DNA from: Kiritimatiellia bacterium
Lineage (GTDB): Bacteria > Verrucomicrobiota > Kiritimatiellia > RFP12 > JAAYLN01
NCBI GenBank assembly: GCA_017962605.1
Contig: JAGCUY010000198.1
Span: 1 to 64,000 of the forward strand
Direction of reading: 5' to 3'
Length of the DNA: 64,000 bases
Shown: positions 46,201 through 64,000 of the stretch, piece after piece
How the letters are laid out: each line of letters starts with the position of its first letter
How positions within the stretch are numbered: the first letter of the stretch is position 1
Program-made: the position numbers and the translations under genes
The notes under the pieces: generated by a model
The model's input: the letters and a program-made list of their open reading frames with translations, nothing else
Databases searched by the model: none
Told to the model about the DNA's origin: nothing

Positions 46201-46221
46201 AATCACACAATTTCCAACTCT

Positions 46222-46559: not shown

Positions 46560-46587
46560 TTGTCAGATAGCCCGACTTGCTACGTAT
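46560..46587 (+). promoter_or_regulatory. Shared promoter-like motif, copy 1
   Basis: TTGTCAGAT, 16-base spacing from TTGTCA, ACGTAT (46582-46587). Heads the five-gene envelope operon starting at 46636. Confidence 0.55.
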
Positions 46588-48785: not shown

Positions 48786-48799
48786 GGAGTAAAAAACCA

Positions 48800-50173
48800 A
48801 TGAACAAGATGCTGACTCGCAAACTCATATCCTTGGCGATGCTTCTCGCCACAGGATGCGCCACAACGGGTTCTGACCCCGAAGGTCCCAAAACCGGGAA
48901 AGGAATTGACACGGATGATTCCGTTAAACCACCCATAACCGCAGTTTCCGTCAGCAATTCCATGTTAGGCGAACGCAGGGTGGAGGATTCCCGCATAAGA
49001 ATCACCTACAGGGACAGCGGCCTTGAAAACGTCACAATAGCGGATGACGCCGACATTAGGGACATCCAGGCCTTTGCGATAACCGCCTATCGAAAAGTCC
49101 TGAAAAACAAGTTGCAGAATGGCGATCCAATCACAAAGGGGGAAACGGAATTGCTGGGGTTCATTTGCTTCGTCCAGCATGTGGCCCTTGCAAGTTTTAC
49201 AGAGTATGGGTACCTCCATTTAACCGGTCGTGTTCGCTGTGACAAAAAGGAATCTCCCATTTTGAAAGACATTAAGGTAAATGGCGACCACCAACTCCCC
49301 CGCGAAGCGGAACTACTCAGGAGATCGGTTGTTAACTTCAACTCCAACAGCAATGTGTTGGCAAGGCTGATTGACTGCTGGTCGGGCGAGTCGCTGCGCG
49401 ATGACGCAAACCAGATTTTCTCTGAAATAGTCGCTCCTCAATATGGGAGGAAGAAGGATGCCGCTCTAGTTGCAAAGCCAGAGGAGTTTTTCTTGGCAAC
49501 CAATCCAATTCTCTTATGGTCGTATGTGCAATACACGGACGATTTGAATGCTTTGAAGAACAAGGACGGAGAGTACACGGGTCAAGAATACACAGGCATT
49601 TTCGACCCACCGAAAACCTCGAAGTTGAACAACAAGCAAAAAGCTCTTCTTTGGGGGCGTGTCGCAAACAGTCTTCGCTTTTATTCAGGGGATTGCGGCG
49701 AGTTGCACCGTGACATGGCTCGTAGCATCCAAATGACCTCGGACTCATATACGAAGCGGCAGATTGAGGACTTGCGAATAAAATACGCCCAATGGCTTGA
49801 AGATGATTTCTACAAGTTCAGGGAGGTCTATTACGCCTACCCGTTTATCTGCGAATGCAAGAAGCTTTTTGAGCGTATTCAAGATGCTCGTCACACACTT
49901 TTTAAAAGCAACAAGGAGCAGATGGAGGACGCTGCTATGATGTTCTGCGAGGCCACGTCCGTAAATGGGAATGAGATGATCAAGAATCTCAATTCACGGT
50001 ATGCGGCGAAAGTCTATGGCGACACCATACGTGAGCTGAAGAGACGGGCGGGGAGCAGGAAATTCAAGGAGATTCAGGAAAAATGCCGGTTGTGGAGTCT
50101 TGACGAGCCGGAGTTTGATATTTCGGATGACGAGTTCGGAATCCGCAAGGTGAAATACATGAAAAAAGATTAG
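48800..50173 (+). CDS. Lipoprotein, envelope operon gene 3
   Basis: The 457-residue protein starts with a lipoprotein signal (MLLATGC lipobox, Cys at about residue 20) and continues as a mainly helical exported protein with many Arg/Lys/Glu and few hydrophobic spans. A segment around 200-330 repeats motifs such as LWSYVQYTDDLNALKNKDGEY. No family recognised. AAGGAG (48783-48788) precedes the ATG. It is likely anchored in the inner or outer membrane and is co-transcribed with its neighbours. Confidence 0.75.
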   Translation: MNKMLTRKLISLAMLLATGCATTGSDPEGPKTGKGIDTDDSVKPPITAVSVSNSMLGERRVEDSRIRITYRDSGLENVTIADDADIRDIQAFAITAYRKVLKNKLQNGDPITKGETELLGFICFVQHVALASFTEYGYLHLTGRVRCDKKESPILKDIKVNGDHQLPREAELLRRSVVNFNSNSNVLARLIDCWSGESLRDDANQIFSEIVAPQYGRKKDAALVAKPEEFFLATNPILLWSYVQYTDDLNALKNKDGEYTGQEYTGIFDPPKTSKLNNKQKALLWGRVANSLRFYSGDCGELHRDMARSIQMTSDSYTKRQIEDLRIKYAQWLEDDFYKFREVYYAYPFICECKKLFERIQDARHTLFKSNKEQMEDAAMMFCEATSVNGNEMIKNLNSRYAAKVYGDTIRELKRRAGSRKFKEIQEKCRLWSLDEPEFDISDDEFGIRKVKYMKKD

Positions 50174-50180
50174 TTTTACC

Positions 50181-50882
50181 ATGAATGCCAATATCATAAG
50201 AACTTGGGCTGTTGCCCAAATCGTCATCGGGGTGGGGTTGGCCTGCTCCACTGCCTATTATGCGCCTTCGGCGTTTCACAAGATGAAGGAGGAATCCCAA
50301 AACGCCGGTGTCGGTCTTCGGGATGTCGCGGAAGCGCTGGCCGCCGTTCGCGTGACATACGCCGAAACGGCGACCAATCTTTTCGACACGGCAAGCGGAA
50401 TGTCAGATGTCGAGATCAAACTCCAAGACGCTGGTGGTGAGATTGGCGATGTCGGCCACCAGTTTGAAGAACGTGGGCGGAAATTCGAGAGGTCGGAACG
50501 TCACAACCGCGAGAGCAAGATATTCTGGGGCAAGATGGAGACGCCTTTTGCAAAATACATCGCGGACATCTACGGCGACTTGAAAGAATGGGCGCTCAAT
50601 GCCGGCACAAAGCTCTGCGATGTGGGGCGCGACTTGTCCCATGTCGCGGAGATAGTTGGAAAGCAGCGTGGGGCAATCGCAAAATACCAGAGCGAGGGGC
50701 ATCCCAAGACCCTGAAGGCCATGGAGAGTTCCGCTGAGACAATAGGCCATGTCGGGGCCCTGCTAACCGAAGGGGAGTCAATAGACATGCTTGCCCGCTC
50801 CGTTTACATCCTGTGCGGGATTGTCGCGCTTCTCTTCATTGGGAACGGTGTCGTCCTTCTTGTCGGCATGGGAAAGAAGTAG
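50181..50882 (+). CDS. Two-span coiled-coil membrane protein, paralog A
   Basis: The 233-residue protein has an N-terminal span (residues about 7-27, AVAQIVIGVGLACSTAYYA), a long helical region of about 170 residues with GDVGHQFEERGRKFERSERHN and LCDVGRDLSHVAEIVGKQ, and a C-terminal span (about 205-228). The repeat D-V-G spacing suggests tandem helices. A second copy at 57281-57991 is about 80% identical. Function unknown; the topology would place the helical region on one side of the membrane as a bundle. Confidence 0.75.
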   Translation: MNANIIRTWAVAQIVIGVGLACSTAYYAPSAFHKMKEESQNAGVGLRDVAEALAAVRVTYAETATNLFDTASGMSDVEIKLQDAGGEIGDVGHQFEERGRKFERSERHNRESKIFWGKMETPFAKYIADIYGDLKEWALNAGTKLCDVGRDLSHVAEIVGKQRGAIAKYQSEGHPKTLKAMESSAETIGHVGALLTEGESIDMLARSVYILCGIVALLFIGNGVVLLVGMGKK

Positions 50883-50885
50883 CGC

Positions 50886-51719
50886 ATGAACGAGCAATCA
50901 AACGATAAGGTTTTGCCGGAAGGGCAAAAGGCAGGCCCGCCATCAATTCAGGATGAAGCCTGTCAATCAGATCGAAAACGCAACGACGATCCAAAAAAGA
51001 AACGTGGTCGGGGAGGAGAAGAAATTTTTAATATACTAATATGCTGCATAATTTTCTATCTTTGGGCCTTTTCCTTCGCGCGAAATGGAGCCTCTGCGGA
51101 TTATCTCAATTCTCCTCCAGTAAAACTGTTGGCTTGGGGAAGTGTCGGCAATATAAATCGGTTGACATTGTTTTTCTGGTTCTTGCCATGCTTGGCAGCT
51201 TGTTTCGGTACGCGAATCTTCCAATGTGTTCGCTTCGTGGGAAGTGGCAAGTTCTTGCTGGACAAGACTCGGGTTACGCGGATACCATGGAGAATTCCTC
51301 TATTGAACATCTGCTTCGCTATTGTTATTTCAGGAATTCTTATTCTGCCGCTTCCATTATATTCATGGGGCGTCTTACTCGGACATTTCGCGTTTTCTGA
51401 ACAAGTATATTTAGTCTTTTGCCAAAGCACGAATGTGTCAATGTTCTCTTTGGGGGGCTATGCCCTTGCCACAATTGCAAGCGAAATCGCATACAACATC
51501 TGGATTGCAGCAAGAGGCCATGCCTTTTGCAAATTCAAATGGTTGCTATTCGGATTCTCAATCGTATTCTTGGTGGCATACTGGATTTGGTGCTATTCTC
51601 GAGAGGGATTTTGCACTGCCACATTGATGAGTGCGCTGATTGGTTCCCCTTGGCTTCTTGGGTTTGACGATGTGCCGTGGCTCCCTTTGTTCTTGTCAGG
51701 GATATTGGCCGCTGATTGA
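50886..51719 (+). CDS. Polytopic membrane protein, envelope operon gene 5
   Basis: The 277-residue protein starts three bases after the previous stop. A charged cytoplasmic tail of about 45 residues (with DDPKKKRGRGGEE) precedes about six hydrophobic spans. No transport or catalytic motif stands out. The tail could contact a cytoplasmic partner. It ends the five-gene operon; the next motif copy begins at 51743. Confidence 0.7.
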   Translation: MNEQSNDKVLPEGQKAGPPSIQDEACQSDRKRNDDPKKKRGRGGEEIFNILICCIIFYLWAFSFARNGASADYLNSPPVKLLAWGSVGNINRLTLFFWFLPCLAACFGTRIFQCVRFVGSGKFLLDKTRVTRIPWRIPLLNICFAIVISGILILPLPLYSWGVLLGHFAFSEQVYLVFCQSTNVSMFSLGGYALATIASEIAYNIWIAARGHAFCKFKWLLFGFSIVFLVAYWIWCYSREGFCTATLMSALIGSPWLLGFDDVPWLPLFLSGILAAD

Positions 51720-51742
51720 GGGATTAGTAATATGAAATAGCC

Positions 51743-51771
51743 TTGTCAGATTCCGCGTCTGAAATCCGTAT
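51743..51771 (+). promoter_or_regulatory. Shared promoter-like motif, copy 2
   Basis: TTGTCA (51743-51748), 17 bases, CCGTAT (51766-51771). Between them TCAGA-N7-TCTGA is a perfect inverted repeat. The downstream leader has a CTATTGAGAC stretch also seen, in variant form, at 54940. Confidence 0.6.
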
Positions 51772-51824
51772 AAGCTATTGAGACACAACTTTTATTCACC
51801 AAAACAAACCGAAGGGGATAAACC

Positions 51825-53618
51825 ATGACCAATACGATGAAAATGCTGTTGCCGCTCGTTGCAGTATGTGCGATGGCTGGCTGCGCAAGGAGCGAGAATG
51901 CCAATTGTGTCGCTGCGGCGGAAACGCCCGAAGGGGCGACGGTTTCGGAAGCAACTCGGCAAGCGGGAGAAAACTCGCAGATAGCCACACCCGCCTGGGT
52001 TGTGACAAGCCCGGAAGTCGCCAGGCGCGCGGAGGCTGGCGATGCCGATGCCATGTTTGAAATTGCCAACGGGTATATGGAACTCGCGGCATCTTCGCAG
52101 ATTGAGGCAGATGACCAAGAACGTCTAGCCATGCGGAAGGAGGCCATGAAATGGATACGACGGCGCGCAAAGGCCATGGCAGACCGCGAGGGGGATTTGG
52201 AAAGTGTCCGCAAGAGGGCGGAAGCCGGTGACGCCGCCGCGCAACGGAATCTGGGATTCCGCTACAGTCAGGGCATCGACGTGGAGAAAGACGAGAAACT
52301 TGCTTTCAAGTGGACAAAAAAAGCTGCGGAAGGGGGCGACGCGAAGGCGCAGTTCAATCTGGCCGGGGACTATGCCGGAGGGCGTTCCGTCGTAGCGCAG
52401 AATCCTAAGGCCGCGACGGAATGGTATCGGAAAGCCCTTCCTGGATTCCGGGAAATGGCGGAGCGGGGTGAGCCGGTCGATTGCAAGCCGCTTGTTTTTG
52501 CCGGGCAGCTTCTGCTTGAAGGCGGTGACGAGAGAGACCGGGTGGAGCGCGATTCGGAACTGGGGATGGGCTATCTTCGCCTAGCCGCAGATTTGGGCGA
52601 CGCCGAGGCGAAGGCGATTATTGAGAAAATGGATGGCATGGATGCCTATCTTCAGGAGCAAAAGGAGGCGTTTAGGTTGATTGATAGCGTTGAAGACGCA
52701 GCAAAAGCTGGCGATATGGACGCGAAGCGACGAAAAGCCCGAATCGACGCATGGAAGGAGAAGGGCAATGCAATCCATGCCAATGTGAAGGACAACGATG
52801 AGATGACGATCAAGCGTATGTTGTTCTACTGGACAACCATGCCAGCCGTTGAGGCCGGGTATGAGCCATGGTATTTTGAGGCGGGGAAGGAATTCGCAAT
52901 TGGGGAAATAGTCCCAAAGGACATGGAGGAAGCCTCAAAGTGGTTCCGCTTGGCCGCCGATCTTGGCGATGCAAGGGCCGAGTATTATCTGGGACTTGGA
53001 TATTTGCTAGGCATTGGCGTTCCGCAAGATGATTTCAAGGCACTTGACTTGCTGAGGCAGTCAGGGAACCAAGACTTTGGTCAGGCAAGGGAGACGCTGG
53101 ATTCGCTGGCCGGAAGATACCGCAAGGAAGCGGAGGAAGGAGATTCATCCGCCCAGTTCATCCTTGGTGCCGCCTACGAGCATGGCGATGGCGTTTCAAA
53201 GGATCCCGTTAAAGCCGTGAAGTGGTATCGCAAAGCAGCCGAGCAGGGGCATCCGGGCGCACAGGCGTTTTTAGGATGGTGTCTCCTTGAGGGGGACGGC
53301 GTCAAAAAGGATGAAAAGGTGGCAGTCGAATGGCTGCGGAAGGCGGCTGAACAGGGAAACTCCGAAGCCCAGTTGAACTATGGGCGCTGCCTGTTCTATG
53401 GCAACGGGGTTGAAAAGGATCAGGCATTTGCCGCCGCATGGTATCGAAAGGCAGCCGAGCAAGGTGAGTTGTCTGCCATATACAACCTCGGCCTTTGCTA
53501 TTTGCAAGGCACAGGAACCGTCCCAGACGAAAAGACTGCCATCGCATGGTTTGAAAAGGCGGCCAAGCGAGGGCATTCAGGCTCGATAAAGATTCTTGAA
53601 CAGCTCAAGGAGAAATAA
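51825..53618 (+). CDS. Sel1-repeat lipoprotein
   Basis: The 597-residue protein opens MTNTMKMLLPLVAVCAMAGC, a lipoprotein signal with Cys20. From about residue 120 to the end it consists of many Sel1-like tetratricopeptide units, for example AEAGDAAAQRNLGFRYSQG, AAEQGHPGAQAFLGWCLLEG and AAEQGNSEAQLNYGRC, with the GDG(V/I) turns typical of Sel1. Such proteins scaffold partners in the periplasm or outer membrane. The signal-peptide part is shared with two neighbouring cassettes whose bodies are unrelated. Motif copy 2 drives it; GGGGAT precedes the ATG. Confidence 0.82.
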   Translation: MTNTMKMLLPLVAVCAMAGCARSENANCVAAAETPEGATVSEATRQAGENSQIATPAWVVTSPEVARRAEAGDADAMFEIANGYMELAASSQIEADDQERLAMRKEAMKWIRRRAKAMADREGDLESVRKRAEAGDAAAQRNLGFRYSQGIDVEKDEKLAFKWTKKAAEGGDAKAQFNLAGDYAGGRSVVAQNPKAATEWYRKALPGFREMAERGEPVDCKPLVFAGQLLLEGGDERDRVERDSELGMGYLRLAADLGDAEAKAIIEKMDGMDAYLQEQKEAFRLIDSVEDAAKAGDMDAKRRKARIDAWKEKGNAIHANVKDNDEMTIKRMLFYWTTMPAVEAGYEPWYFEAGKEFAIGEIVPKDMEEASKWFRLAADLGDARAEYYLGLGYLLGIGVPQDDFKALDLLRQSGNQDFGQARETLDSLAGRYRKEAEEGDSSAQFILGAAYEHGDGVSKDPVKAVKWYRKAAEQGHPGAQAFLGWCLLEGDGVKKDEKVAVEWLRKAAEQGNSEAQLNYGRCLFYGNGVEKDQAFAAAWYRKAAEQGELSAIYNLGLCYLQGTGTVPDEKTAIAWFEKAAKRGHSGSIKILEQLKEK

Positions 53619-53648
53619 CGGGGCCGCCTTGTCCGACACTTGATCGAT

Positions 53649-53702
53649 CTTGGCCGCAGGGATGCGGAACGAGTGCTGCGGGATGAGAGGCTATTGCCTT
53701 GA
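53649..53702 (+). repeat. Orphan C-terminal tail R1
   Basis: Reads LGRRDAERVLRDERLLP then TGA. It belongs to the same decayed tail as R2-R5. The DNA also forms CCGCA-GGGA-TGCGG. Confidence 0.65.
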
Positions 53703-53728
53703 TTCCAATCTCTTTTCTGTCTAATTTA
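53700..53728 (+). promoter_or_regulatory. Promoter of the AT-rich gene
   Basis: TTGATT (53700-53705), 17 bases, TAATTT (53723-53728). CCTTGATTCC looks like a shortened version of the shared motif start CCTTGTCAGATTC. AAGGAGCAGCC is the ribosome site. Confidence 0.45.
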
Positions 53729-53748
53729 ATTACAAGGAGCAGCCAACA

Positions 53749-54837
53749 ATGAATGATTCCACGCTCAATATGAATGTCGAGCTTGTCAAGAAATCAATTC
53801 CAACCCTTCAATTGGCAACAAAGAAAGGAGATCAAACCGCTTTAGAACTTTTGGAGGCGTATTCTAAAATTCCTGGTGAAGTTGGAACTAATGCATTGTT
53901 AGCCTTAGGAGAACTATTTTGCGATCAATCATTACCTTTCGCAGATTTTGAAAAGGGCTTTGAAAGGTTGCGTGAAGCAGCAAGACAAGGGCAATACTGT
54001 GCCGTCAAAACACTTATTGGATTCCTTTTCTCAAATCCACCTAAAAGGCATCTCCAATCAAGTTGGGATATCGCTTCAATCAGAATTCATCAGCTTGATT
54101 TTTGGAAACCGCTTATTGAAACCTATATTGCGAATTGTACTGCTAAAAAAGAATTCTACTCCCTAATTGTAAATAAGGAACTTGCCATAAATTGTGACGA
54201 AGCTTTTTCAGGCATCATAAAAGCCTTTTTCGAGGAGACTGAACATAATCTGAAAGACTATTTGAAGTTCCTTATGGACAAGTCTTCAAATAAGGAAATC
54301 TTTACAGCATGTGCCAAAAAACTATGCGATATGGCTTGTAGTGGGGATGAATCGGCCCTGATTTTGCTTATGAGCTATTACAAAAGGTTAGATAAATGGG
54401 GTATTTCTCAATTAATTGACAAAAATATTATCTCGTTGAGCGAAGCGCAGCGCTATTTGGCTTTGGGATTAAAAACTGAGATTGTAAATGAAGCCCCTTG
54501 GGAGTATTATCAAAAAGGCGCATTTCTTGGTTCTGTAACATGCAAACTGAAAATAATACGTCTTCGTTTAACACAATCTCAAACAGACTTAGAAGCAGTT
54601 GAAAAATCTCTTTCGGAAATTACGAAAACACCATCCGAAGAATCGTTAATCGCCGAAGTAAAATCTTTAATCAAATTGTTTGTTATCAGGTGTAATGAAG
54701 CACGTGCTGTTGATGAGATGGTTATACGATCTTGTAATGACATTGCCTTCAAGGATAATGAAACAGCACAGTCGATAATATTTCACTACAACAAGTTAAG
54801 TAGCTGGATTGCTGCTTATGGCTCAAAAATGGCATAG
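53749..54837 (+). CDS. AT-rich Sel1-like helical protein
   Basis: The 362-residue protein has no signal peptide (MNDSTLNMNVELVKKS) and appears cytoplasmic. A LREAARQGQYCAVKTLIGFLF segment near residue 75 fits one or two Sel1-like helix pairs; the remainder is helical and unassigned. Codon use is strikingly A/T-rich compared with every neighbour (many AAA, ATT, TTT codons), which points to recent transfer. It sits between tail R1 and tail R2, as a cassette in the array. Confidence 0.65.
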   Translation: MNDSTLNMNVELVKKSIPTLQLATKKGDQTALELLEAYSKIPGEVGTNALLALGELFCDQSLPFADFEKGFERLREAARQGQYCAVKTLIGFLFSNPPKRHLQSSWDIASIRIHQLDFWKPLIETYIANCTAKKEFYSLIVNKELAINCDEAFSGIIKAFFEETEHNLKDYLKFLMDKSSNKEIFTACAKKLCDMACSGDESALILLMSYYKRLDKWGISQLIDKNIISLSEAQRYLALGLKTEIVNEAPWEYYQKGAFLGSVTCKLKIIRLRLTQSQTDLEAVEKSLSEITKTPSEESLIAEVKSLIKLFVIRCNEARAVDEMVIRSCNDIAFKDNETAQSIIFHYNKLSSWIAAYGSKMA

Positions 54838-54838
54838 G

Positions 54839-54898
54839 CTTGAACTCGGCCGCAGGGATGCGGAGAGGAAGCTTCGGGAAGAAGGGTTGATTGAGTAG
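54839..54898 (+). repeat. Orphan C-terminal tail R2
   Basis: Reads LELGRRDAERKLREEGLIE then TAG; begins at the stop of the AT-rich gene in another frame. Confidence 0.7.
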
Positions 54899-54911
54899 TT
54901 TCTAAACGGCC

Positions 54912-54940
54912 TTGTCAGATTCCCGGCCTGTAGGACGTAT
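54912..54940 (+). promoter_or_regulatory. Shared promoter-like motif, copy 3
   Basis: TTGTCA (54912-54917), 17 bases, ACGTAT (54935-54940). About 90 bases here nearly match copy 5 at 56437. Confidence 0.6.
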
Positions 54941-54992
54941 TTGTTATTGAGACAATACCTTTCATTCAACATCTGAACCAAGGAGACAAACA

Positions 54993-55145
54993 ATGAACAA
55001 GATCATGAAAATGCTGTTGCCGCTCGTCGCGGCACTCTGGCAGGCCATGGCGGAGAGGCGCATCGATTTTGTGACTCTTGTGCGTTGCATGGAGGAAGGC
55101 CGAATGACCCGCATCATGACACCATATATGGAGGCGCTATCATGA
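54993..55145 (+). CDS. Truncated signal-peptide cassette
   Basis: A 50-residue product starts MNKIMKMLLPLVA, the same export start as the genes at 51825 and 56518, then diverges into LWQAMAERRIDF and stops in ATGA overlap with the next frame. It looks like the 5' end of a lipoprotein gene joined to foreign DNA: no lipobox Cys remains. Promoter copy 3 and AAGGAGAC ribosome site are intact, so it may still be translated. Confidence 0.5.
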   Translation: MNKIMKMLLPLVAALWQAMAERRIDFVTLVRCMEEGRMTRIMTPYMEALS

Positions 55146-55423
55146 AAACGACATTCGCCCGCAGAAATACGACGCTCCCACCTGACATTCCAGCTGCTTT
55201 GACCTCCAGGTTTTCGGGAAACCCGACGAAGAAGGCGCAGAGGGTTGCTTTTCTAAGAAACGGGGGACTTCCAGGAGATGGCCTTGCCTTGCAGACAGTC
55301 ATTGAGCGAATTAGGCTGTTCCTGCTCCCTGTCGTCAATTCGCATAACCATTGCGGAGCGGCATGGGTAGCCGGTGTTGGCTGGTCGGCAGCAAGAAAGC
55401 GGAACGACGAGGAAGGAGACTGA
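55142..55423 (+). CDS. Uncertain small protein coupled to the truncated cassette
   Basis: A 93-residue frame (MKTTFARRNTTLPPDIPAAL) starts in ATGA overlap. Composition is basic with GGLPGDGLALQTV, and no family is recognised. The opposite strand is also open over this stretch, so coding status is doubtful. Confidence 0.3.
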   Translation: MKTTFARRNTTLPPDIPAALTSRFSGNPTKKAQRVAFLRNGGLPGDGLALQTVIERIRLFLLPVVNSHNHCGAAWVAGVGWSAARKRNDEEGD

Positions 55424-55444
55424 TTCTGTCTGTGGCACGTAGCT

Positions 55445-55473
55445 TTGTCAGAATCCGGCATTGAACCCCGTAC
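55445..55473 (+). promoter_or_regulatory. Shared promoter-like motif, copy 4 (diverged)
   Basis: TTGTCA (55445-55450), 17 bases, CCGTAC (55468-55473); GAATCC replaces GATTCC. Leader CAACCCAAGGAG leads to the ATG at 55523. Confidence 0.5.
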
Positions 55474-55522
55474 ATATTGTCGAGGTGCCACTTCATTTAC
55501 AAAGCAACCCAAGGAGTAAACA

Positions 55523-56227
55523 ATGACCAAGACTACGAATCGCCTGTTATCTGGACTTAGGATTGCCGGAACCGTTTTCTCGCTCTCTATTGCGTTTAGC
55601 GCTGGCGCGTGGATGGATGAGTGGGCACCGGATTTTGAATCGACGCCGATTGCTGTCCGGGAGTTGCCAAAAGAGAGCGTGAGCGATTTTGTCAACACCG
55701 TTGAGGATGATTCAGGTATCGCTTTCGGTGTAACCCGTGGGCGAGGAATCGTTTCGTATTGCAAGGCGTATGACATAAGTCAGGGGTATGGACTCGACCT
55801 GAATGGAGACGACTTTGAAGACCATGTATTCCTTATTCCGTCAAATGCGTGTGGGCTGGGTGCCCTCTTGTGTGAAGTGCATTTCATCGTTTCCAACGGG
55901 GCAAAGGGCTGGAAGCATACAGTCATGGATGGATTTGGGGTTAATGCATCCGACCTTGTGAAAGTGGCGGGGAAAACTTATTTCCGTCATTCATATTTCT
56001 TCCGTAGTTTTGAAAAGAGCGACCACAATCACTGGGTCTTCCAGGTCTTTTCGTTTAAGGCGGACGGCTCCGTGGAATGCGGCAACGATGACTTTGGCGA
56101 GTTTTTCCCAGCCGCGACAATATTTTACGAAAGGCCAAGATTCAAGCGGATTGAACTCACCGAGATGGATTTGAAGGAAATCGCCGACGAAACAAAACCA
56201 CGCTCATCGCACGCCAACGAAGAGTGA
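55523..56227 (+). CDS. Exported protein of the array, unknown
   Basis: The 234-residue protein has a hydrophobic start (RIAGTVFSLSIAFSAGAWM) that is probably a signal peptide, then an exported beta-rich domain with GIAFGVTRGRGIVSYCKAYD and DLNGDDFEDHVFLIPSNACG. The DLNGDDFED segment resembles a Ca-binding DxDGxxD loop, as in FG-GAP or dockerin-type repeats, once only. No family is assigned. AAGGAG precedes the ATG. A weak terminator follows at 56227. Confidence 0.65.
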   Translation: MTKTTNRLLSGLRIAGTVFSLSIAFSAGAWMDEWAPDFESTPIAVRELPKESVSDFVNTVEDDSGIAFGVTRGRGIVSYCKAYDISQGYGLDLNGDDFEDHVFLIPSNACGLGALLCEVHFIVSNGAKGWKHTVMDGFGVNASDLVKVAGKTYFRHSYFFRSFEKSDHNHWVFQVFSFKADGSVECGNDDFGEFFPAATIFYERPRFKRIELTEMDLKEIADETKPRSSHANEE

Positions 56228-56248
56228 GGGAAATTCCCCTCCCTTTTT
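56227..56248 (+). terminator. Weak intrinsic terminator
   Basis: AGGGA pairs with TCCCT across an 8-base loop, followed by TTTT. Confidence 0.45.
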
Positions 56249-56350
56249 ATTCCCGTCCTTCGCCCGAAGGGAAGTGACGATTAGGAATCGATGACTATGG
56301 AGGGCATGTCTCACGCGGAGTCGCGGCGGGGCGGAGGACGCGGTGGAGAC

Positions 56351-56423
56351 TGAACCACGGAATACACGGAATTCACGAAAGGACGCGGAGAGGAAGCTTC
56401 GGGAAAAAGGGTTGATTGAGTAG
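56351..56423 (+). repeat. ACCACGGAATACACGG repeat joined to orphan tail R3
   Basis: TGAACCACGGAATACACGGA (56351-56370) is related to 44289-44319. Tail R3 (56382-56423) reads DAERKLREKGLIE then TAG. The two are abutted without a spacer, which marks a recombination junction. Confidence 0.6.
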
Positions 56424-56436
56424 TTTCAAAATGGCC

Positions 56437-56465
56437 TTGTCAGATTCCCGGCCTGTAGGACGTAT
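56437..56465 (+). promoter_or_regulatory. Shared promoter-like motif, copy 5
   Basis: TTGTCA (56437-56442), 17 bases, ACGTAT (56460-56465). Leader and ribosome site closely match copy 3. Confidence 0.6.
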
Positions 56466-56517
56466 TTGTTATTGAGACAATACCTTTCATTCGACATCTG
56501 AACAAAGGAGACAAACA

Positions 56518-57111
56518 ATGAACAAGACCAAGAAAAAGCTGTTGCCGCTCGTTGCAGTGGGCGTGACGCTTGGCGCGATTGTAGCAGGGTGCGCGAACAA
56601 GGCTGATGATGCAAACTCCCGAAGAGACGAAGCGAAGCGTCTGGCGTCTGCCTCGCTGGGTGTTCTCGGCGACGCGGCGGAAAAGGAGAACGCCTTGACA
56701 TGCCGGGTGCATCTTCGTGATGCCCAGACAGGGGAATCTCTCGCAGCGGATGGCTTTTGGGGCGATTTGATACTCTCTATTGCTCGCATTGACCCTTGGA
56801 ACAACTTGTTCTTTGGCGGCATTGACGAATTGCCCAAACTGTCTGAAATCTTTTTGCCCGATGACTATGGCCGCTCCTATGGTGGGTTTTATCGAACTGT
56901 GGCCAAAAGTTCATTCCCCACGAATGCCCCTCGCTTTGATGTGGAAGTCGTTCTGGTAATCCCGAAGCATGCAGAAGACAAAGAACAAAAGCCTGAAACA
57001 ACCGCTGAGGATGTCCTTCCGAAAATCCTTGAGGCAATGGCTGAGGAAGAAGTCAATCCGATGGAAGACGTTCTGGAGTTCTTGAGGAACAGGAAGCGGG
57101 CGGAACCATAG
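56518..57111 (+). CDS. Small lipoprotein of the array
   Basis: The 197-residue protein starts MNKTKKKLLPLVAVGVTLGA and has a lipobox IVAGC (Cys at about residue 25). It shares its export signal start with the genes at 51825 and 54993. The exported domain is beta-rich, with KLSEIFLPDDYGRSYGGFYR and an acidic C-terminal end (AMAEEEVNPMEDVLEFL). Not recognised. AAGGAGACAAAC precedes the ATG. Confidence 0.7.
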   Translation: MNKTKKKLLPLVAVGVTLGAIVAGCANKADDANSRRDEAKRLASASLGVLGDAAEKENALTCRVHLRDAQTGESLAADGFWGDLILSIARIDPWNNLFFGGIDELPKLSEIFLPDDYGRSYGGFYRTVAKSSFPTNAPRFDVEVVLVIPKHAEDKEQKPETTAEDVLPKILEAMAEEEVNPMEDVLEFLRNRKRAEP

Positions 57112-57160
57112 GCCATGCCAACTCCCCTCTTCGCCCAACACCGCCCGCCACTTGATGTAA

Positions 57161-57214
57161 CTTGGTCGCAGGGATGCGGAGCGGGTACTACGAGAAGAAA
57201 GGCTGATTGAGTAG
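57161..57214 (+). repeat. Orphan C-terminal tail R4
   Basis: Reads LGRRDAERVLREERLIE then TAG. Confidence 0.65.
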
Positions 57215-57227
57215 CTGATGAATAGCC

Positions 57228-57255
57228 TTGTCAGATTCTCAATCTAACTCCGTAT
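57228..57255 (+). promoter_or_regulatory. Shared promoter-like motif, copy 6
   Basis: TTGTCA (57228-57233), 16 bases, CCGTAT (57250-57255). It overlaps a potential ATG at 57254, which argues against that ATG as a start. Confidence 0.6.
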
Positions 57256-57280
57256 GTTTTTTGAGGAACAATATTCAAAC

Positions 57281-57991
57281 ATGAATGCAAAAGTCATAAA
57301 AACTTGGGCGGTTGCCCAAATCGTCATCGGGGTGGGGTTGGCCTGCTCTACTGCCTATTATGCGCCTTCGGCGTTTCACAAGATGAAGGAGGAGTCCCGA
57401 AACGCAGGTGCCGGCCTGCAGGATGTCGCGGAGGCGCTTGCCGCCGTCCGCATGACATACGCGGAGTCTGCGACCAACCTCTTCAACACGACAGGCGAAA
57501 TGGATGATGTAGCGGCCAAGCTTCAAGACGCCGGGGGGAAGATTGGCGATGTCGGCCACAAATTTGAGAAGCATGGCCGGAAATTCGAGAGATCGGAACG
57601 CCACAACCGCGAGAGCAAGATATTGGGCATCAAGACCCCTGGCGCAGAGTTCCTTGCCGACATATACGGCGACTTGAAGGAATGGTCGCTAAACGCCAGC
57701 GAGAACCTTTGCGATGCTGGCAGGGACTTGTCCCATGTCGCGGAAACAGTTGGGAAGCAGCGCGAGGCAATCGAAAAATACCAGCTTGAGGGGCATCCCA
57801 AGACCCTGAAGGCCATGGAGAGTTCCGCCAAGACAATAGGCCATGTCGGGGTCCTGCTAACCGAAGGGGCGTCAATAGGCATGCTTGCCCGCTCCGTTTA
57901 CATCCTGTGCGGGATTGTCGCGCTGCTCTTCATTGGGAATGGTGTCGTTCTCCTTGTCGTAATGCCTCGCCCAAAACCGCCAAGCGCCTGA
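57281..57991 (+). CDS. Two-span coiled-coil membrane protein, paralog B
   Basis: The 236-residue protein is about 80% identical to the one at 50181-50882: same N-terminal span, DVG-spaced helical region and C-terminal span, differing mainly in the segment after GDVGHKFEKHGRKFERSER and a longer basic/Pro end (MPRPKPPSA). I chose 57281 because the paralog starts at the equivalent codon and the upstream ATG lies in the promoter motif. Here it is monocistronic with its own motif copy, while paralog A is in the five-gene operon. Duplication of this component suggests dosage or partner differences. Confidence 0.78.
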   Translation: MNAKVIKTWAVAQIVIGVGLACSTAYYAPSAFHKMKEESRNAGAGLQDVAEALAAVRMTYAESATNLFNTTGEMDDVAAKLQDAGGKIGDVGHKFEKHGRKFERSERHNRESKILGIKTPGAEFLADIYGDLKEWSLNASENLCDAGRDLSHVAETVGKQREAIEKYQLEGHPKTLKAMESSAKTIGHVGVLLTEGASIGMLARSVYILCGIVALLFIGNGVVLLVVMPRPKPPSA

Positions 57992-57996
57992 TTGAA

Positions 57997-58062
57997 CTTG
58001 GCCGCAAGGATGCGGAGAGAGTGCTACGGGAAGAATGGATAATTGAATCTCCAACATATTAG
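57997..58062 (+). repeat. Orphan C-terminal tail R5
   Basis: Reads LGRKDAERVLREEWIIE, extended by SPTY before TAG. Confidence 0.65.
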
Positions 58063-58068
58063 CCGACC

Positions 58069-58097
58069 TTGTCAGTGACATGGCGTTTTGATAGACT
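58069..58097 (+). promoter_or_regulatory. TTGTCA promoter of the transposase gene (related to the shared motif)
   Basis: CCTTGTCAG, then 17 bases from TTGTCA to TAGACT (58092-58097), which has upstream TGA. The -10 is sigma-70-like rather than CCGTAT. Predicted +1 is at the ATG at 58104, so the mRNA would be leaderless. Confidence 0.6.
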
Positions 58098-58103
58098 GTC
58101 CAC

Positions 58104-59270
58104 ATGAAGTCCGAGACGGGAAACATACCTCCTGGCTGGCATATTGACGAAGCGTCGGGATGCCTTGTGCGCGACACCATCCACCACATGGGGCGCAGGT
58201 GCCGCAACTGGGACTATTGTGGCAAGGGCTGCTACCTCATAACCATGACACTGCGGGATCGCTCGCGGCCTGTGCTGGGGAGTGTGCGCCGAGCCATTGA
58301 TGGCTCGGCGGAGTTCACCCCATCTCCCCTAGGCGAGCGCATCGAAGCACACTTGCGGCGCATCCCCGAATTCTCGCCGGAAATGGAGGTGCTTGGCTCC
58401 CAGCTCATGCCTGATCACATGCACGTGGTTCTACGGGTGCGGCGGCGAATGGCCCGGCCGCTCGGCGAATGCCTTCGCGGCTTCAAGATTGGCGCCACCA
58501 AGATTGCCCGCGAAGAGGGGAACTCGCCCATGGATGGGCGAGCGCTGGGCGAGGCCGCCAGGGGGCATGGTCTTTTCGCCGATGGGTTCGTGGATACGAT
58601 TCTCTTTGACGAAGCGGCTCTTTCGCACGGGCTTGCCTATATGGCGGACAACCCGCGACGCCTCCTTGAAAAGCGCGAACACCCGGAACTGTTCCGCGTG
58701 GTTCGGGATTTGGAGTTCTCGCCCATCGATGGGCGAGAGCTGCGCTTTGCCGCCATTGGCAATCGACATCTCCTTGAAGCGCCAGCACTTTTGCAAGTCC
58801 AATGCTCTCGGCGCGATTTCGCATACGCGAAAGCCTCTGACGGCTCACTTGCCAAAGACGCGCCGCCTACAGTTTGCACACCATTCTTTGAAGAGAAAGC
58901 CGCTGAGTTCCTCGCCGCAGCCGCGCATGGCGCGGTGCTGGTTTCGCCGTGCATCTCGCATGGGGAGAGGGAAATCGCCCGCCGTGCGCTTCAAGTCGGC
59001 GCACGGCTCATCGCGCTTCAAAATAAGGGGTTCCCGCCACTCTTCAAGCCATCCGGGCTTTTCTTTGAGCGATGCGTTGAGGGGCGCCTCCTTCTCCTCG
59101 CCCCGGCGGGGTGGACATATCTGCCCGGCGAAAAGCGCATGACCCGCGAGGATGCATGCGTTCTCAACCGCATCGCGCAAATGCTTTGTGGGGCTGGAGC
59201 TGCCAAAATCAACTACCACGGACTGGTCCCGGAAGCGATTGACCGACTCGTCGAAAGATCCATGCCATGA
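58104..59270 (+). CDS. REP-associated (Y1/HUH) transposase with C-terminal Rossmann-like domain
   Basis: The 388-residue protein has a RAYT-type catalytic core: YLITMTLRDRSRPV strand, HUH-type DHMHVVLRV (His105, His107) and the nucleophile Tyr in LAYMADNPRR (Tyr179). REP-associated transposases move or copy palindromic REP elements. Typical members are about 150-230 residues; here about 160 extra residues follow, with HGAVLVSPCISHGEREIARRA and GRLLLLAPAGW, a pattern like a DprA/LOG-type Rossmann domain. Three long palindromes lie inside the coding DNA. Its stop overlaps the next start (ATGA). Confidence 0.75.
   Translation: MKSETGNIPPGWHIDEASGCLVRDTIHHMGRRCRNWDYCGKGCYLITMTLRDRSRPVLGSVRRAIDGSAEFTPSPLGERIEAHLRRIPEFSPEMEVLGSQLMPDHMHVVLRVRRRMARPLGECLRGFKIGATKIAREEGNSPMDGRALGEAARGHGLFADGFVDTILFDEAALSHGLAYMADNPRRLLEKREHPELFRVVRDLEFSPIDGRELRFAAIGNRHLLEAPALLQVQCSRRDFAYAKASDGSLAKDAPPTVCTPFFEEKAAEFLAAAAHGAVLVSPCISHGEREIARRALQVGARLIALQNKGFPPLFKPSGLFFERCVEGRLLLLAPAGWTYLPGEKRMTREDACVLNRIAQMLCGAGAAKINYHGLVPEAIDRLVERSMP
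58287..58310. repeat. Palindrome in the transposase gene, RP1
   Basis: Arms of 11 bases (CGCCGAGCCAT and its complement) around TG. Confidence 0.8.
58523..58542. repeat. Palindrome in the transposase gene, RP2
   Basis: CTCGCCCAT and its complement around GG; encodes SPMDGR. Confidence 0.8.
58717..58738. repeat. Palindrome in the transposase gene, RP3
   Basis: TCTCGCCCAT and its complement around CG; encodes SPIDGR. Near-identical to RP2. Confidence 0.8.
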
Positions 59271-60469
59271 ACCTTTTCATTACTGAACTTTTCAAGAATC
59301 CGTTTGTCTATTTTTCGACGGTAATAGCATTCATGGGGTCGATTTGCTTCCATGAATTCTGCCACGCCACTGTCGCACACCATCTTGGCGACGACACGGC
59401 AAGAAATCAAGGGTTCCAAACACTCAACCCCTTCAAGGTCATGGGCTGGAAATCCCTTCTTTGCCTTTTGCTGTTTGGTTTCAGCTGGGGAGCCGTGCCG
59501 GTATTGCCAGAAGACAAAAGCCGATTCCGCAGGTCGGCCATTTCACTTGCCGGCCCTCTTTCAAATTTACTTCTGCTGTGTCTTTCGTCGTTTGTCCTCC
59601 ATGTCCTTCGCGGAATGGGGGTTTGGGGAACGGGGAACTTTTCCTATCTTGGAACCTTTGTCATCTTGTTGCTTTACTCAAATGCAGTCCTCTTCCTGTT
59701 AAACATATTACCAATACCTCCGTTAGATGGCTGGGGCACTATTGAACCGTTCTTGCCCGCAACTCTTGTTCCGTCCCCGGAAAACAAGGGAAGGATTTTC
59801 ATGGTTTTCATTTATTTCATTTGCTTTCAAAGCGCTTCCTCTGGCCTTTTCGATAAAGGAGTCGAGGCACTTTTTGAAAGATTCCTCCCAAAGCCAAACG
59901 CTGTCGAATCCATGGTTGCACAGGGGAACGAATTCTACGAGGCGGGGGACTTCGGCGAAGCCTACAAAGCCTTTGCGCAAGCGGCTGAAGAAGGAAGCCC
60001 AGAAGGGAGGCTTCTACAAGGGATAATGTTGAGTAATGGGGAAGGGGTAGAGCAAGATTTAAATAAAGCATACAAGTTATTGGATGACGAAGAGGTTTTG
60101 AAGGCATTTCCAGTGGCTACCCACCATCTTGCGAGTTTACTGCTTTTGGGGGAGGGATGCGACAAGGATGCCAAACGGGCATTCTCGCTGTTGTCCGACC
60201 CTAAAGTGCTGGAAGTGTCTCCCGCCGCACAGTTTCTACTTGGAATTTGCTACTATAGCGGGGAGGGATGCGAACAGGATTTCAAGAAGGCCGCAGAACG
60301 CATCAAGGCCGCAGCTGATGCCGGGAATGTCGATGCGATGGAGTTTCTTGGCTATCAGAATGGCAAGTATGTCGATTGCGGAATGCCCCTTGACGAGCTG
60401 CTAAGGCAAATGTGGCTGGATTCCCAACAGTCGGATAATCCTGCTAGCGATGCCGAATTCGTCAAATAG
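59267..60469 (+). CDS. M50 site-2-type membrane protease fused to Sel1 repeats
   Basis: The 400-residue protein is a rhomboid-free zinc membrane protease of the M50 kind: HEFCH (His29, Glu30, His33) in a first span, the second metal ligand in NILPIPPLDGW (Asp near residue 155), and several hydrophobic segments, with LAGPLSNLLLL typical of the family. From about residue 210 it continues with Sel1-like helix pairs (FYEAGDFGEAYKAFAQAAEEG, LLQGIMLSNGEG, LLGICYYSGEG). M50 enzymes cut membrane-spanning regulators, often anti-sigma factors. The Sel1 part would recruit substrates. It is co-translated with the REP transposase upstream (ATGA overlap), an odd pairing. Confidence 0.78.
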   Translation: MNLFITELFKNPFVYFSTVIAFMGSICFHEFCHATVAHHLGDDTARNQGFQTLNPFKVMGWKSLLCLLLFGFSWGAVPVLPEDKSRFRRSAISLAGPLSNLLLLCLSSFVLHVLRGMGVWGTGNFSYLGTFVILLLYSNAVLFLLNILPIPPLDGWGTIEPFLPATLVPSPENKGRIFMVFIYFICFQSASSGLFDKGVEALFERFLPKPNAVESMVAQGNEFYEAGDFGEAYKAFAQAAEEGSPEGRLLQGIMLSNGEGVEQDLNKAYKLLDDEEVLKAFPVATHHLASLLLLGEGCDKDAKRAFSLLSDPKVLEVSPAAQFLLGICYYSGEGCEQDFKKAAERIKAAADAGNVDAMEFLGYQNGKYVDCGMPLDELLRQMWLDSQQSDNPASDAEFVK

Positions 60470-60471
60470 CC

Positions 60472-60500
60472 TTGTCAGATTCTCAGTCTGGAATCCGTAT
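60472..60500 (+). promoter_or_regulatory. Shared promoter-like motif, copy 7
   Basis: TTGTCA (60472-60477), 17 bases, CCGTAT (60495-60500), with TCAGA-N7-TCTGG in the spacer. Leads to the protease gene at 60548. Confidence 0.6.
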
Positions 60501-60547: not shown

Positions 60548-62029
60548 ATGAAACAAGCAACAATCACGGCAGCCCTCCTCGGCGCCGCACTCGCCACCAC
60601 GGCAACCACCGCCTCCGCCCAGGAGGATGTAATGGAACAGCAGGGGCCAGACCCACTTAACGCAGTCGTTAAACTGGAGGTCTCGACTTCAGAAATCAAC
60701 GAACTCGAACCATGGCGCACGGACCAGGGCGGCGGTGACGGCTCGGGCGTAATCATCGGCGACGGCCGCATCCTGACTTGCGCCCATTGCGTGTCTGACG
60801 CCGCGTTCATCCGCGTCCGCAAGTCCGATGTGGACACCATCTACCACGGCAAGGTCGAGTTCATCGACAACGACTGCGACCTGGCGCTCGTGCGCGTTGA
60901 GGACCCTTCCTTCATGGCCAACGTCGCGCCTATGGAAATCGGCGAGACTCCTAGAGTGCAGGCCGAGGTCGTGGCCGTCGGATACCCCAGGGGCGGGCGG
61001 CTAATCTCCTTCACCCGCGGAATCGTCTCCCGCATTGAAGACCAGCGCTACTCCCAGTCCTTCCAATTTCTTCTGGCAATCCAAATCGACGCGGCAATTA
61101 ATCCCGGCAACAGCGGCGGCCCCGTCCTCGACATGGGGACTGGGGAAATCTGCGGCATCGCCTTCCAAGGCCGCGATGACGGCGAATCACTGGGCTACAT
61201 GATCCCCCCGGACATGATCAGGCAGTTCTTCAACGATATCGCCGATGGCCGCATTGACGGCGTGGCGGAGCGGCGATTCAGCATCAGCGGCATGGAGAGC
61301 GAGGCAAGGCGCCGCGCATGCGGCATGAAACCCGAACACACGGGCGTATTCATCACCAACGTCGATCCGTCCATTGAGGACGATTCCGTGAAGACTGGCG
61401 ACATTCTTTTGGAAATCGGCGGGTTCAACATCGCCAACAACGGGAACATCCGCATCGAGGGGAATGAAATCCGCTCCGTGTTCTGGCCTCTCTACATCCG
61501 GCAGATTGGCGAAACCATCCCTGCAAAGGTCCTTCGCAAGGGCGTTGAGACCGATGTGTCGCTTCATGTCTCCAAACGGAACTGGAAAGTCAGGCCCTAC
61601 CTTCACGACTTGGAGCCGGACTGGTTCATCACTGGCGGGTTCGTCTTCACGACTTCCTCTTTCAACCTTCTTGAAAAGCGGGCGCACTACCGCGAAGACC
61701 CCGCAGACGAGCAAAGTTCTCCGGGCGAAATGCAGGTCATCCTCTGCTCCGTGTTCGCCGATGCCGCAATCGAGGGCTACATGGGGTCGGCGGGCCTTCG
61801 GCTCGACACGGTGAACGGGGTGAAGGTGCGCAATCTCCGCCACCTTGCGGAGCTGGTTGACGGGTGCGGTGATGAGTTCATACGTTTCGGCATGGACGAC
61901 GATGACCCATGGAACGAGGAAATCATCGTGGACAGGGCGCAGATGCGCGAGGCGACGCCGCGCGTGATGGAGCGCTACAAGATCCCCTTCGACAGAAGCG
62001 AAGACCTCCGCGCGGCGAAAAAACCATAA
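60548..62029 (+). CDS. DegP/HtrA-like periplasmic serine protease
   Basis: The 493-residue protein has a signal peptide (cleavage near ASA-QE). The chymotrypsin-like triad is His80 (TCAHCV), Asp111 (NDCDLALVRV) and Ser189 (NPGNSGGP). A PDZ-like domain follows (DPSIEDDSVKTGDILLEIGG) and a second C-terminal one (AAIEGYMGSAGLRLDTVNGV). HtrA-type proteases degrade or refold damaged periplasmic proteins and are classic envelope-stress products. Driven by motif copy 7, it is the best-understood member of the shared-motif set. CAGGAGTTAGAC precedes the ATG. Confidence 0.88.
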   Translation: MKQATITAALLGAALATTATTASAQEDVMEQQGPDPLNAVVKLEVSTSEINELEPWRTDQGGGDGSGVIIGDGRILTCAHCVSDAAFIRVRKSDVDTIYHGKVEFIDNDCDLALVRVEDPSFMANVAPMEIGETPRVQAEVVAVGYPRGGRLISFTRGIVSRIEDQRYSQSFQFLLAIQIDAAINPGNSGGPVLDMGTGEICGIAFQGRDDGESLGYMIPPDMIRQFFNDIADGRIDGVAERRFSISGMESEARRRACGMKPEHTGVFITNVDPSIEDDSVKTGDILLEIGGFNIANNGNIRIEGNEIRSVFWPLYIRQIGETIPAKVLRKGVETDVSLHVSKRNWKVRPYLHDLEPDWFITGGFVFTTSSFNLLEKRAHYREDPADEQSSPGEMQVILCSVFADAAIEGYMGSAGLRLDTVNGVKVRNLRHLAELVDGCGDEFIRFGMDDDDPWNEEIIVDRAQMREATPRVMERYKIPFDRSEDLRAAKKP

Positions 62030-62064: not shown

Positions 62065-63897
62065 ATGGGTAAGTCATCGGAAATTGACACAGCGCCATAT
62101 AGGCGGCTGCGGGAAATAGGATGCGGCGCGTATGGGACGGTCTATCTGGCGACGGGGCCTGACGGCTTCGTCGCGCTCAAGCTCTGCATTCGCCCGGACG
62201 ACGGCGACGCGGCCCCCTATTCCCGCGAGCGGCGGGCCCTGGAGTCCTACGTCGCGATGCCGCCCATTGAGGGGATCGTGGCCATCCGCAAGCTCTTTGT
62301 CGCGCCGGACGGGAAATACTTCTACTATGTCATGGACCTCGCGGACGACGAACTTCGCGGCCGCGACATCCTGCCGGAGAGCTACCGCCCAAAAACTCTC
62401 GCGGAAATACTGGAGGCCGAGCGCGCGCTTTCGCTCAAGGCGTCCGTCGCGCTGGCGCTCCGGCTCACCCGGACGCTGGTGGCCCTCCAAAGACGCCATC
62501 TGGCGCACCGCGACATCAAGCCCGGCAACATCCTGGTGGTTCGGGGCCGCCCAGTTCTCGCAGACATAGGGCTTCTCACGGACATGCGGCGCGACGACCT
62601 CTCCGCAGTCGGCACGAAAGGCTACGCCCCGCCCGAACGGCACGGGCTTCCGTCGGGCGATGTCTTCAGCCTCGGCCAGACGCTTTACCGCGTCAGCACG
62701 GGGCGGGAGATTGACGAACACGGGTTCGCGCCCAGCAAGGAGTCGGATTACGAGGCGCCTTTTTTCGGCCGCTGGCTGGTCATTCTCGAAAAATCCTGCG
62801 CCCAGGACCCCATTCGCCGCTATCGCAGCGCGAAGGGCCTGCTCAAGGACTTGCGCGCCCTCCGCCGGGCAATGGTGTTCACGCCCTACTTCAAGGCTGC
62901 CGGGATATTCCTCGCCGCAGTGTCACTCATCGGCCTGGCAGTCTGGGGCACTCTCCGCGTGCGTCGCACCCATGCCCGCAGGGAGAATATCGAAAAACTG
63001 CTCCATGAAAAGACCTTCGTCCTCTCACGGACGGCCTTTGCGACATCTCTGGACGAAACTCTTGCGGGGAATGTCGATTCCGGGATTGTGGACAGGGTCG
63101 TGAATGGCTTCTGGAAGGGGGCGACCCTCTACAACGAGGCCATTGCCGATATCGCCTTCGCCCTCCAGGTGCCGGAGGACACCGATCTCGTCGGCGAGGC
63201 CGAGAGAATCATGCAAGTCCGCCTTGGCGCCGGGGTCGAGGCCGCCATCCGCGAGGAGGCGCGGCGCATCTGCCGCTATCGCGTCGAATTCACGCAGGAC
63301 GCCATCGACTCCTTCCGCCTGTACGGGAAGGAGGATGGCTGGGAGCGCTACATGCTTGCCGCCATCCTCGTCGATACTGTCCGTGGAGTGGACTTCAACC
63401 GCTGCTGCCTTGAGCTGGAGGCGGCGCTCTTCCTTGTGGACGAAGCCATGGCGAATGAAAAAGGGGGCTGGCGCAAGACGCTCCGCATGAATGCCGGCGA
63501 CATCCGCGAATACTGGCGCAGGTGCCGCTCAGTCCAGTTCGCCATTCTCGAAGAGCGCATGGCCGAGGCCGTGGTCCTGACAACGCGCGGTGCATACGCC
63601 GACATCGGCTCCACGGACTTCGCAGACCGGCTGGCGGGGGATATCTCGCGCGCCACGGAGATCAAGCGCGATGAGTTTTACAGCCGGTTCTCGAAGTTGC
63701 TGGACGAGGCACGCCTCCTGCTTGCCCAGAATCTGGCGCAAAGATATGGCCAGATGGCCAAAGCCAAGGGGCAGGCCAAAATGTGGCCGTGGCCGCTTCC
63801 AGAAGAGGACGTGGTGCGCATAGTCGAGACGATTGCCCGCCGGACGGGCATCGGGGAGGGGCAGATTCGCCTGGCTTTCGACAATGCCTGCCGCTAG
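62065..63897 (+). CDS. Membrane Ser/Thr protein kinase with degenerate DFG
   Basis: The 610-residue protein has an N-terminal kinase domain (about residues 12-260): GCGAYGTVYLA glycine loop, Lys39 in VALKLC, catalytic HRDIKPGN (Asp150), and DIG (167-169) in place of DFG, then GTKGYAPPER. A hydrophobic span follows (about 274-297), and about 310 residues of helical exported-side sequence with no known sensor family. This is the topology of Hanks-type kinases that sense outside signals. It starts 35 bases after the DegP gene, so it may be co-transcribed; no separate promoter was found. The stop is shared in a 4-base convergent overlap with the last gene. Confidence 0.85.
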   Translation: MGKSSEIDTAPYRRLREIGCGAYGTVYLATGPDGFVALKLCIRPDDGDAAPYSRERRALESYVAMPPIEGIVAIRKLFVAPDGKYFYYVMDLADDELRGRDILPESYRPKTLAEILEAERALSLKASVALALRLTRTLVALQRRHLAHRDIKPGNILVVRGRPVLADIGLLTDMRRDDLSAVGTKGYAPPERHGLPSGDVFSLGQTLYRVSTGREIDEHGFAPSKESDYEAPFFGRWLVILEKSCAQDPIRRYRSAKGLLKDLRALRRAMVFTPYFKAAGIFLAAVSLIGLAVWGTLRVRRTHARRENIEKLLHEKTFVLSRTAFATSLDETLAGNVDSGIVDRVVNGFWKGATLYNEAIADIAFALQVPEDTDLVGEAERIMQVRLGAGVEAAIREEARRICRYRVEFTQDAIDSFRLYGKEDGWERYMLAAILVDTVRGVDFNRCCLELEAALFLVDEAMANEKGGWRKTLRMNAGDIREYWRRCRSVQFAILEERMAEAVVLTTRGAYADIGSTDFADRLAGDISRATEIKRDEFYSRFSKLLDEARLLLAQNLAQRYGQMAKAKGQAKMWPWPLPEEDVVRIVETIARRTGIGEGQIRLAFDNACR

Positions 63898-64000
63898 TGT
63901 GCTGCCGCAAGCGCGGGCGGGTGCTCCATGTCTTGCGCTACGGTCTCGAAGAGGTCGGCGAAGCGACCCTTGATGCGTTTGCGGATCTGGTAGATGTTGT
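63894..64000 (-). CDS. C-terminal part of an unknown protein
   Basis: An open minus-strand frame runs from the window edge to a TAG at 63894-63896, giving at least 34 residues ending NIYQIRKRIKGRFADLFETV and MEHPPALAAAH. It overlaps the kinase stop by 4 bases. Too short to classify. Confidence 0.4.
   Translation of the reverse strand, partial: NIYQIRKRIKGRFADLFETVAQDMEHPPALAAAH

Follow-up and report, generated by a model that had tools for sequence, protein, structure and literature searches.

Introduction

Why do genes with unrelated products begin with nearly the same promoter, leader and export signal? The question is raised by a run of genes, all on the + strand, at about 46.5–60.5 kb of a contig from a Kiritimatiellia bacterium (assembly GCA_017962605.1, contig JAGCUY010000198.1). 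We analyzed the first 64 kb of this 82.7-kb contig (positions 1 to 64,000, hereafter 'the window'); the genome is a 4.18 Mb metagenome-assembled genome (MAG) of 231 contigs, 93% complete with 3.3% contamination. An earlier note, made from the sequence alone, had explained the shared gene starts between 51743 and 58104 by repeated recombination of bodies behind one expression and export module. Here we propose, with a probability of about 0.8, that the array is the locally expanded regulon island of an adjacent extracytoplasmic function (ECF) sigma factor with a protein kinase as its partner. Genes are named below by their start coordinates.

Results

One promoter motif precedes seven transcription units

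The upstream regions of the array share a core, TTGTCAGA-N15/16-CGTA, which has the form of an ECF-type -35/-10 pair. It also stands upstream of the orthologues of the 60548 protease in two other genomes, G001 and G002. Seven exact sites are present in the window, all on the + strand and 26–54 nt before an ATG:

46560–46586, +, ECF-type motif of unit 1 (operon 46636–51719), exact TTGTCAGA-N15-CGTA
51743–51770, +, ECF-type motif of unit 2, motif scan
54912–54939, +, ECF-type motif of unit 3, motif scan
55445–55472, +, ECF-type motif of unit 4, motif scan
56437–56464, +, ECF-type motif of unit 5, motif scan
57228–57254, +, ECF-type motif of unit 6, motif scan
60472–60499, +, ECF-type motif of unit 7, motif scan

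A Markov model, used as the null for motif counts, predicts 0.005 sites per 64 kb in the window scan. Genome-wide there are nine sites, seven of them in the array, and none for the reversed pattern, which served as an additional control. The two remaining sites, G000:C150:11665 (-) and G000:C181:26087 (+), lie upstream of unassigned open reading frames (ORFs) of 197 and 224 residues. The shared promoter noticed earlier at three genes is thus present there but not confined to them, and the island is longer than had been described, extending over about 46.56–60.5 kb with its presumed regulator at 62066–64514.

A kinase-linked ECF sigma factor adjoins the array

Two genes to the right of the array are central to its interpretation:

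62066–63898, +, Ser/Thr protein kinase (Pfam Pkinase, 2e-17), directly right of the HtrA-like protease gene
63894–64000 in the window (63894–64514 on the contig), -, ECF sigma factor gene; its 3' end is in the window, convergent with the kinase gene

The sigma factor has 206 residues, matches Sigma70_r2 (1.2e-12) and scores 60.9 bits with TIGR02937 over residues 28–184 (cutoff 42.9); it consists of the sigma2 and sigma4 domains alone, at the length of about 200 residues that characterizes ECF proteins. The sigma protein has matches in 19 of 59 relatives and, in addition, at 33 named loci; the relatives identified by name are MAGs of Kiritimatiellae/Verrucomicrobiota, a good number of them from the ruminant gut. 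The core motif accompanies the orthologous sigma factor gene at 25 of the 33 loci, in Kiritimatiellae MAGs (the Markov null predicts 0.2 hits over the whole set), and a kinase motif lies near it at 23. At one locus, L136, a motif site stands upstream of a secreted Sel1-repeat protein. Because the motif recurs at orthologous loci and the sigma factor gene adjoins the array, we read the array as an ECF regulon. Judged by conservation and neighborhood, the shared promoter is best read as being, primarily, the conserved target of this sigma factor.

In the ECF43 group, by definition, uncharged residues that include Thr (QTTA/STTA) stand in region 2.2 in place of the acidic DxxD (PMC8999054, PMC13147305); other kinase-linked groups keep an acidic DxxD-type motif and may work differently (PMC8999054). 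The window protein has the adjacent Ser/Thr kinase gene typical of ECF43 but carries DAKD in region 2.2, and its relatives DADD or DADE. Since it retains the acidic DxxD that ECF43 lacks, it is not a member of that group.

Three genes share a duplicated 5' module

Within the array, genes 51825, 54993 and 56518 have in common the promoter, leader, ribosome-binding site, start codon and first ~13 codons (MxxxMKMLLPLVA or KKLLPLVAV):

51825–53618, +, lipoprotein with Sel1 repeats (Pfam Sel1, 2e-78) and the module leader and signal by alignment
54993–55145, +, truncated signal-peptide ORF of 50 residues, without a lipobox
56518–57111, +, lipoprotein of unassigned family with the module leader and signal by alignment
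54851–55030, +, duplicated module (stub, promoter, leader and first 13 codons), 93% identical to 56376–56555 over 180 nt

Alignment shows that the modules of 54993 and 56518 are alike from the middle of a preceding gene remnant, the stub, to codon 13 and unrelated past about that codon. A third copy, at 51740–51862, is 75–76% identical to both over ~120 nt. The bodies behind the module, compared with each other by BLASTP, show no similarity. These results bear out the earlier description of near-identical starts before unrelated mature parts, and of 54993 as a truncated copy. The near-identity of about 90 nt that had been noted upstream is real and extends twice as far. This repeat comprises more than a promoter, as the 3' end of a gene for a patatin-like phospholipase forms part of it. 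All three genes share the start of the export signal, as claimed, whereas the complete lipoprotein signal is kept in 51825 and 56518 only. The remaining array proteins have N-termini of their own (export signals were judged by eye). We conclude that the shared promoter, leader and lipoprotein signal of the three genes arose by duplication.

Across the bacterium's own genome, module copies occur at the array locus only, within 14 kb. Beyond short leader matches, none was found outside that locus in 95 genomes, and neither the module nor the bodies have a match in G001, the single genome of the same genus that was compared.

Five junctions carry the tail of a patatin gene

Five junctions of the array each hold a copy of one short coding tail ending in RLIELGRKDAERVLREEGLIE:

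53622–53702, +, patatin C-terminal stub 1 (RHLIDLGRRDAERVLRDERLLP followed by a stop), sequence comparison
54833–54898, +, patatin C-terminal stub 2, sequence comparison
56376–56423, +, patatin C-terminal stub 3, sequence comparison
57128–57214, +, patatin C-terminal stub 4, containing a stop codon in frame, sequence comparison
57961–58062, +, patatin C-terminal stub 5 (PKTAKRLIELGRKDAERVLREE..), 82% identical in amino acids to the G023 patatin; DNA identity of 84% over 49 nt

The same tail forms the C-terminus of a secreted patatin-like phospholipase in G023, G050 and G053. The G023 protein matches Patatin at 8e-21, and its 82% identity to the stub extends over 22 residues (E 1.5e-6). For the catalytic patatin domain, the array holds 3' stubs only and the genome gave no match at E<=1e-20; no intact patatin resembling the source of the stubs was found in this genome or in the examined members of the genus and family. 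Differences among the stubs at codon positions 1/2/3 are 36/12/52, mainly at the third position, which indicates that the stubs diverged while still coding. The stubs start at different points, so that the junctions between body and stub differ between copies. After four of the five comes the next gene's promoter unit or a sequence resembling a promoter; stub 1 is followed by 53749, which has no intact motif. In its own setting (L048, 8778–15247), the G023 patatin gene lies beside genes for an M48 peptidase, a lipoprotein and weak matches to GAP1-N2 and DO-GTPase2, an arrangement resembling a conflict system.

Other genes of the array and their relatives

The remaining array genes are the following:

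46636–51719, +, five-gene operon of adjacent or overlapping ORFs
53749–54837, +, 362-residue protein of unassigned family, without an export signal or an intact upstream motif
55523–56227, +, secreted 234-residue protein, homologue and motif scans
57281–57991, +, membrane protein, duplicate of the 50181 body by alignment (81% in amino acids)
58104–59270, +, gene resembling a REP-associated transposase (weak NF047646 match, below cutoff), with a sigma70-like upstream sequence and no motif site
59267–60469, +, M50 peptidase with Sel1 repeats, profile search
60548–62029, +, HtrA/DegP-like secreted serine protease with a PDZ domain (Pfam Trypsin_2, PDZ_3)

The operon encodes a membrane-anchored protein (46636), a secreted protein (47106), a lipoprotein (48800) and two membrane proteins (50181 and 50886); the 47106/48800 pair is kept in G039. 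The ORF called at 57254 most likely starts at 57281, and its DNA resembles that of 50181 over precisely the stretch between the ATG and the last codons, outside which the two differ. The 58104 gene is probably a passenger outside the regulon.

Several bodies have relatives that lack the motif. The 55523 protein has homologues elsewhere in the order, and the ~1.5 kb examined on each side of them holds no motif. A paralogue of the 60548 protease on C198 is 86% identical in DNA over the mature part only, with a different signal and upstream region; this copy (L057, 805–2261, -) has a different leader and no ECF motif. Together with the sharp junctions, these motif-less relatives support the view that bodies were recruited behind the promoter or that promoter blocks were placed before existing genes; either may have moved.

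Searches of the PDB by sequence gave no matches for 47106 or 55523. A model of 55523 built from an eight-sequence alignment has a mean pLDDT (predicted local distance difference test) of 69.5, and its best PDB match, CarG (E 0.25), is not significant. Two wider assignments were tried and rejected: PADLOC matches to anti-phage defense were either weak or of the general kind that kinases and repeat proteins give, and a PHROGs search for a phage origin, covering seven array proteins, returned nothing.

The stretch 44349–46337, immediately left of the array, contains 14-nt tandem repeats (GACTTTCGACTTTT) and two 99-nt blocks (95% identical) at 45410 and 46239, around an ORF6N gene and a gene resembling a PDDEXK_2 transposase. 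Positions 1–29000 (-) form a prophage-like block by ORF content, with large terminase-, portal- and capsid-like ORFs.

In relatives the motif precedes a peptide gene and an ATP-grasp gene

At 15 of the 33 ECF loci, the motif stands before a gene for a peptide of 39–47 residues, belonging to one family (MTPNDIATDI...DDANTWD), which is followed by an ATP-grasp gene. The ATP-grasp protein of G001 resembles peptide maturases of the MvdC/MvdD type, with scores under the curated cutoffs. The pair is likely an undescribed graspetide-like family. The maturase is present in G001 and G002 and was not found in the window's genome. Precursor and ATP-grasp genes behind the motif occur at loci L126–L152 and elsewhere, for example L144 11833 (-), L136 5593 (-) and L083 3974 (+), and sometimes a protein of ~558 residues resembling an ABC transporter is added. 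In the open-access literature, we found no paper that connects ECF sigma factors and graspetides, or that reports a regulon of this kind from Kiritimatiellae.

Discussion

The motif, the module copies, their junctions, the linkage to the sigma factor gene and the conservation across species are direct observations, and the mechanism we propose would build on them as follows. The kinase would presumably sense an envelope or environmental signal and control the sigma factor. RNA polymerase carrying that sigma factor would then start at TTGTCAGA-N15/16-CGTA before the seven transcription units. Secreted proteins (the HtrA-like protease among them), lipoproteins or membrane proteins are the products of most of these units, pointing to a putative role in the envelope. 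The island would have grown by local duplication of a block consisting of the patatin 3' end, ECF promoter, leader and lipoprotein signal. Bodies that landed behind the block promoters, or remained behind, would leave genes that have 5' ends and 3' stubs in common but differ entirely in between; we infer the order of these events.

Repeated recombination, as the earlier note proposed, is supported: one module stands before unrelated bodies, and the junctions show recombination. It is not needed as the cause of the shared promoter. With the motif beside the orthologous ECF gene at 25 of 33 Kiritimatiellae loci, much of the promoter sharing is a conserved regulon signal, and in our reading it is chiefly the regulon that accounts for the common expression signal.

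Several observations weigh against reading the array as a regulon island. Two motif sites, on C150 and C181, are on contigs other than that of the ECF gene; an intact motif is missing before 53749, and the sequence upstream of 58104 is of another type. Kinase and sigma factor genes are convergent here, unlike in most relatives. The spacers within the array are just modestly more similar to each other than are those of other species, so that common descent and convergence are inseparable for units 1, 4, 6 and 7. Finally, the array is known from a single MAG, and with 3.3% contamination the C198 protease paralogue could derive from a related strain.

Other origins for the array were weighed against the regulon. 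Repeated units between unrelated ORFs, with junctions sharp at start codons and within signal sequences, recall integrons, in which unrelated ORFs are likewise split by a repeated intervening sequence, and a dedicated system of site-specific recombination, integron-like or other, might exchange one body for another while the expression and export module stays in place. Such machinery, implied by the term cassette, was not borne out: no integrase-like family was found in a search of the array proteins, none of seven gaps holds an attC-like site or a GTTRRRY core, and their folding is not unusual. In addition, the 5' junctions vary in position, each unit has its own promoter and the repeats are confined to one locus, making this explanation quite improbable. 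The module might also have been copied by the REP-type transposase at 58104 or a similar element, since a transposase-like gene sits within the array; mobile promoters are known as promoter-bearing segments copied before unrelated genes. The copies here, however, lie within 14 kb rather than scattered and are linked to a regulator gene; the upstream sequence of 58104 is different, no terminal repeats were seen and no mobile element was identified. We regard transposition as a very poor candidate.

Ordinary tandem duplication, in which bodies from one gene lost their similarity through ancient divergence while the 5' ends stayed alike, would explain a local, same-strand array, and 50181/57254 is a true duplicate pair. 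The modules of 54993 and 56518, however, pass abruptly from 93% identity to none beyond codon 13, and the bodies belong to different families (Sel1, M50, HtrA and the 55523 family), so there is little to recommend it. Among type VI lipase effectors, some have Sel1-like periplasmic proteins as their immunity partners. The array, with its five patatin stubs scattered between genes for secreted proteins and lipoproteins, could accordingly be a remnant effector-immunity island, in which the lost patatin was the lipase effector and the immunity proteins, namely the lipoproteins and Sel1 proteins, were retained. This origin seems unlikely: there is no intact effector, the patatins of relatives stand in other contexts (M48 peptidase and GAP1/GTPase-like genes), and neither PADLOC nor PHROGs gave a convincing match for the array bodies.

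The regulon island has counterparts among described systems. In kinase-linked ECF groups (ECF43, with EcfP/PknT of Vibrio and EcfK/PknS of Xanthomonas, and ECF59/61/62/217 of Planctomycetes), as in the window, the sigma factor gene adjoins a Ser/Thr kinase gene, no anti-sigma gene was noticed and target genes are few. The present group differs in being seen here in Kiritimatiellae only, in its TTGTCAGA..CGTA promoter and in targets that include a RiPP-like (ribosomally synthesized and post-translationally modified peptide) cluster or the present array. RpoE-type envelope-stress regulons resemble the array in that genes for envelope proteins, an HtrA/DegP-like protease among them, stand behind an ECF promoter; the window, by contrast, has a kinase, no RseA-like anti-sigma gene noticed beside the ECF gene, and a locally clustered regulon. 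The motif followed by a short precursor and an MvdC/D-like ATP-grasp ligase in 15 relatives recalls graspetide (microviridin-type) clusters, whereas the precursor core is different, the matches fall below curated cutoffs and the window's genome has no such cluster.

In a more tentative reading, which we hold to be possible but doubtful, the sigma factor carries with it a portable block of promoter, leader and lipoprotein signal; duplicated beside its gene, this block would recruit envelope genes of unrelated kinds, joining them at the start codon or at the edge of the signal peptide. The same reading takes the target beside the sigma factor gene in many relatives to be an uncharacterized graspetide-like peptide cluster. 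If the portable block is real, the regulon would be rebuilt by cassette-like capture.

The regulon reading assigns a regulator to a run of genes that had carried no label before and offers a candidate promoter for a kinase-linked ECF group of uncultured gut Kiritimatiellae. It also points to a conserved RiPP-like cluster under predicted ECF control. The array itself would be an example of how a regulon may grow, through copied blocks of promoter and export signal whose joins are marked by the stubs of a lost gene.

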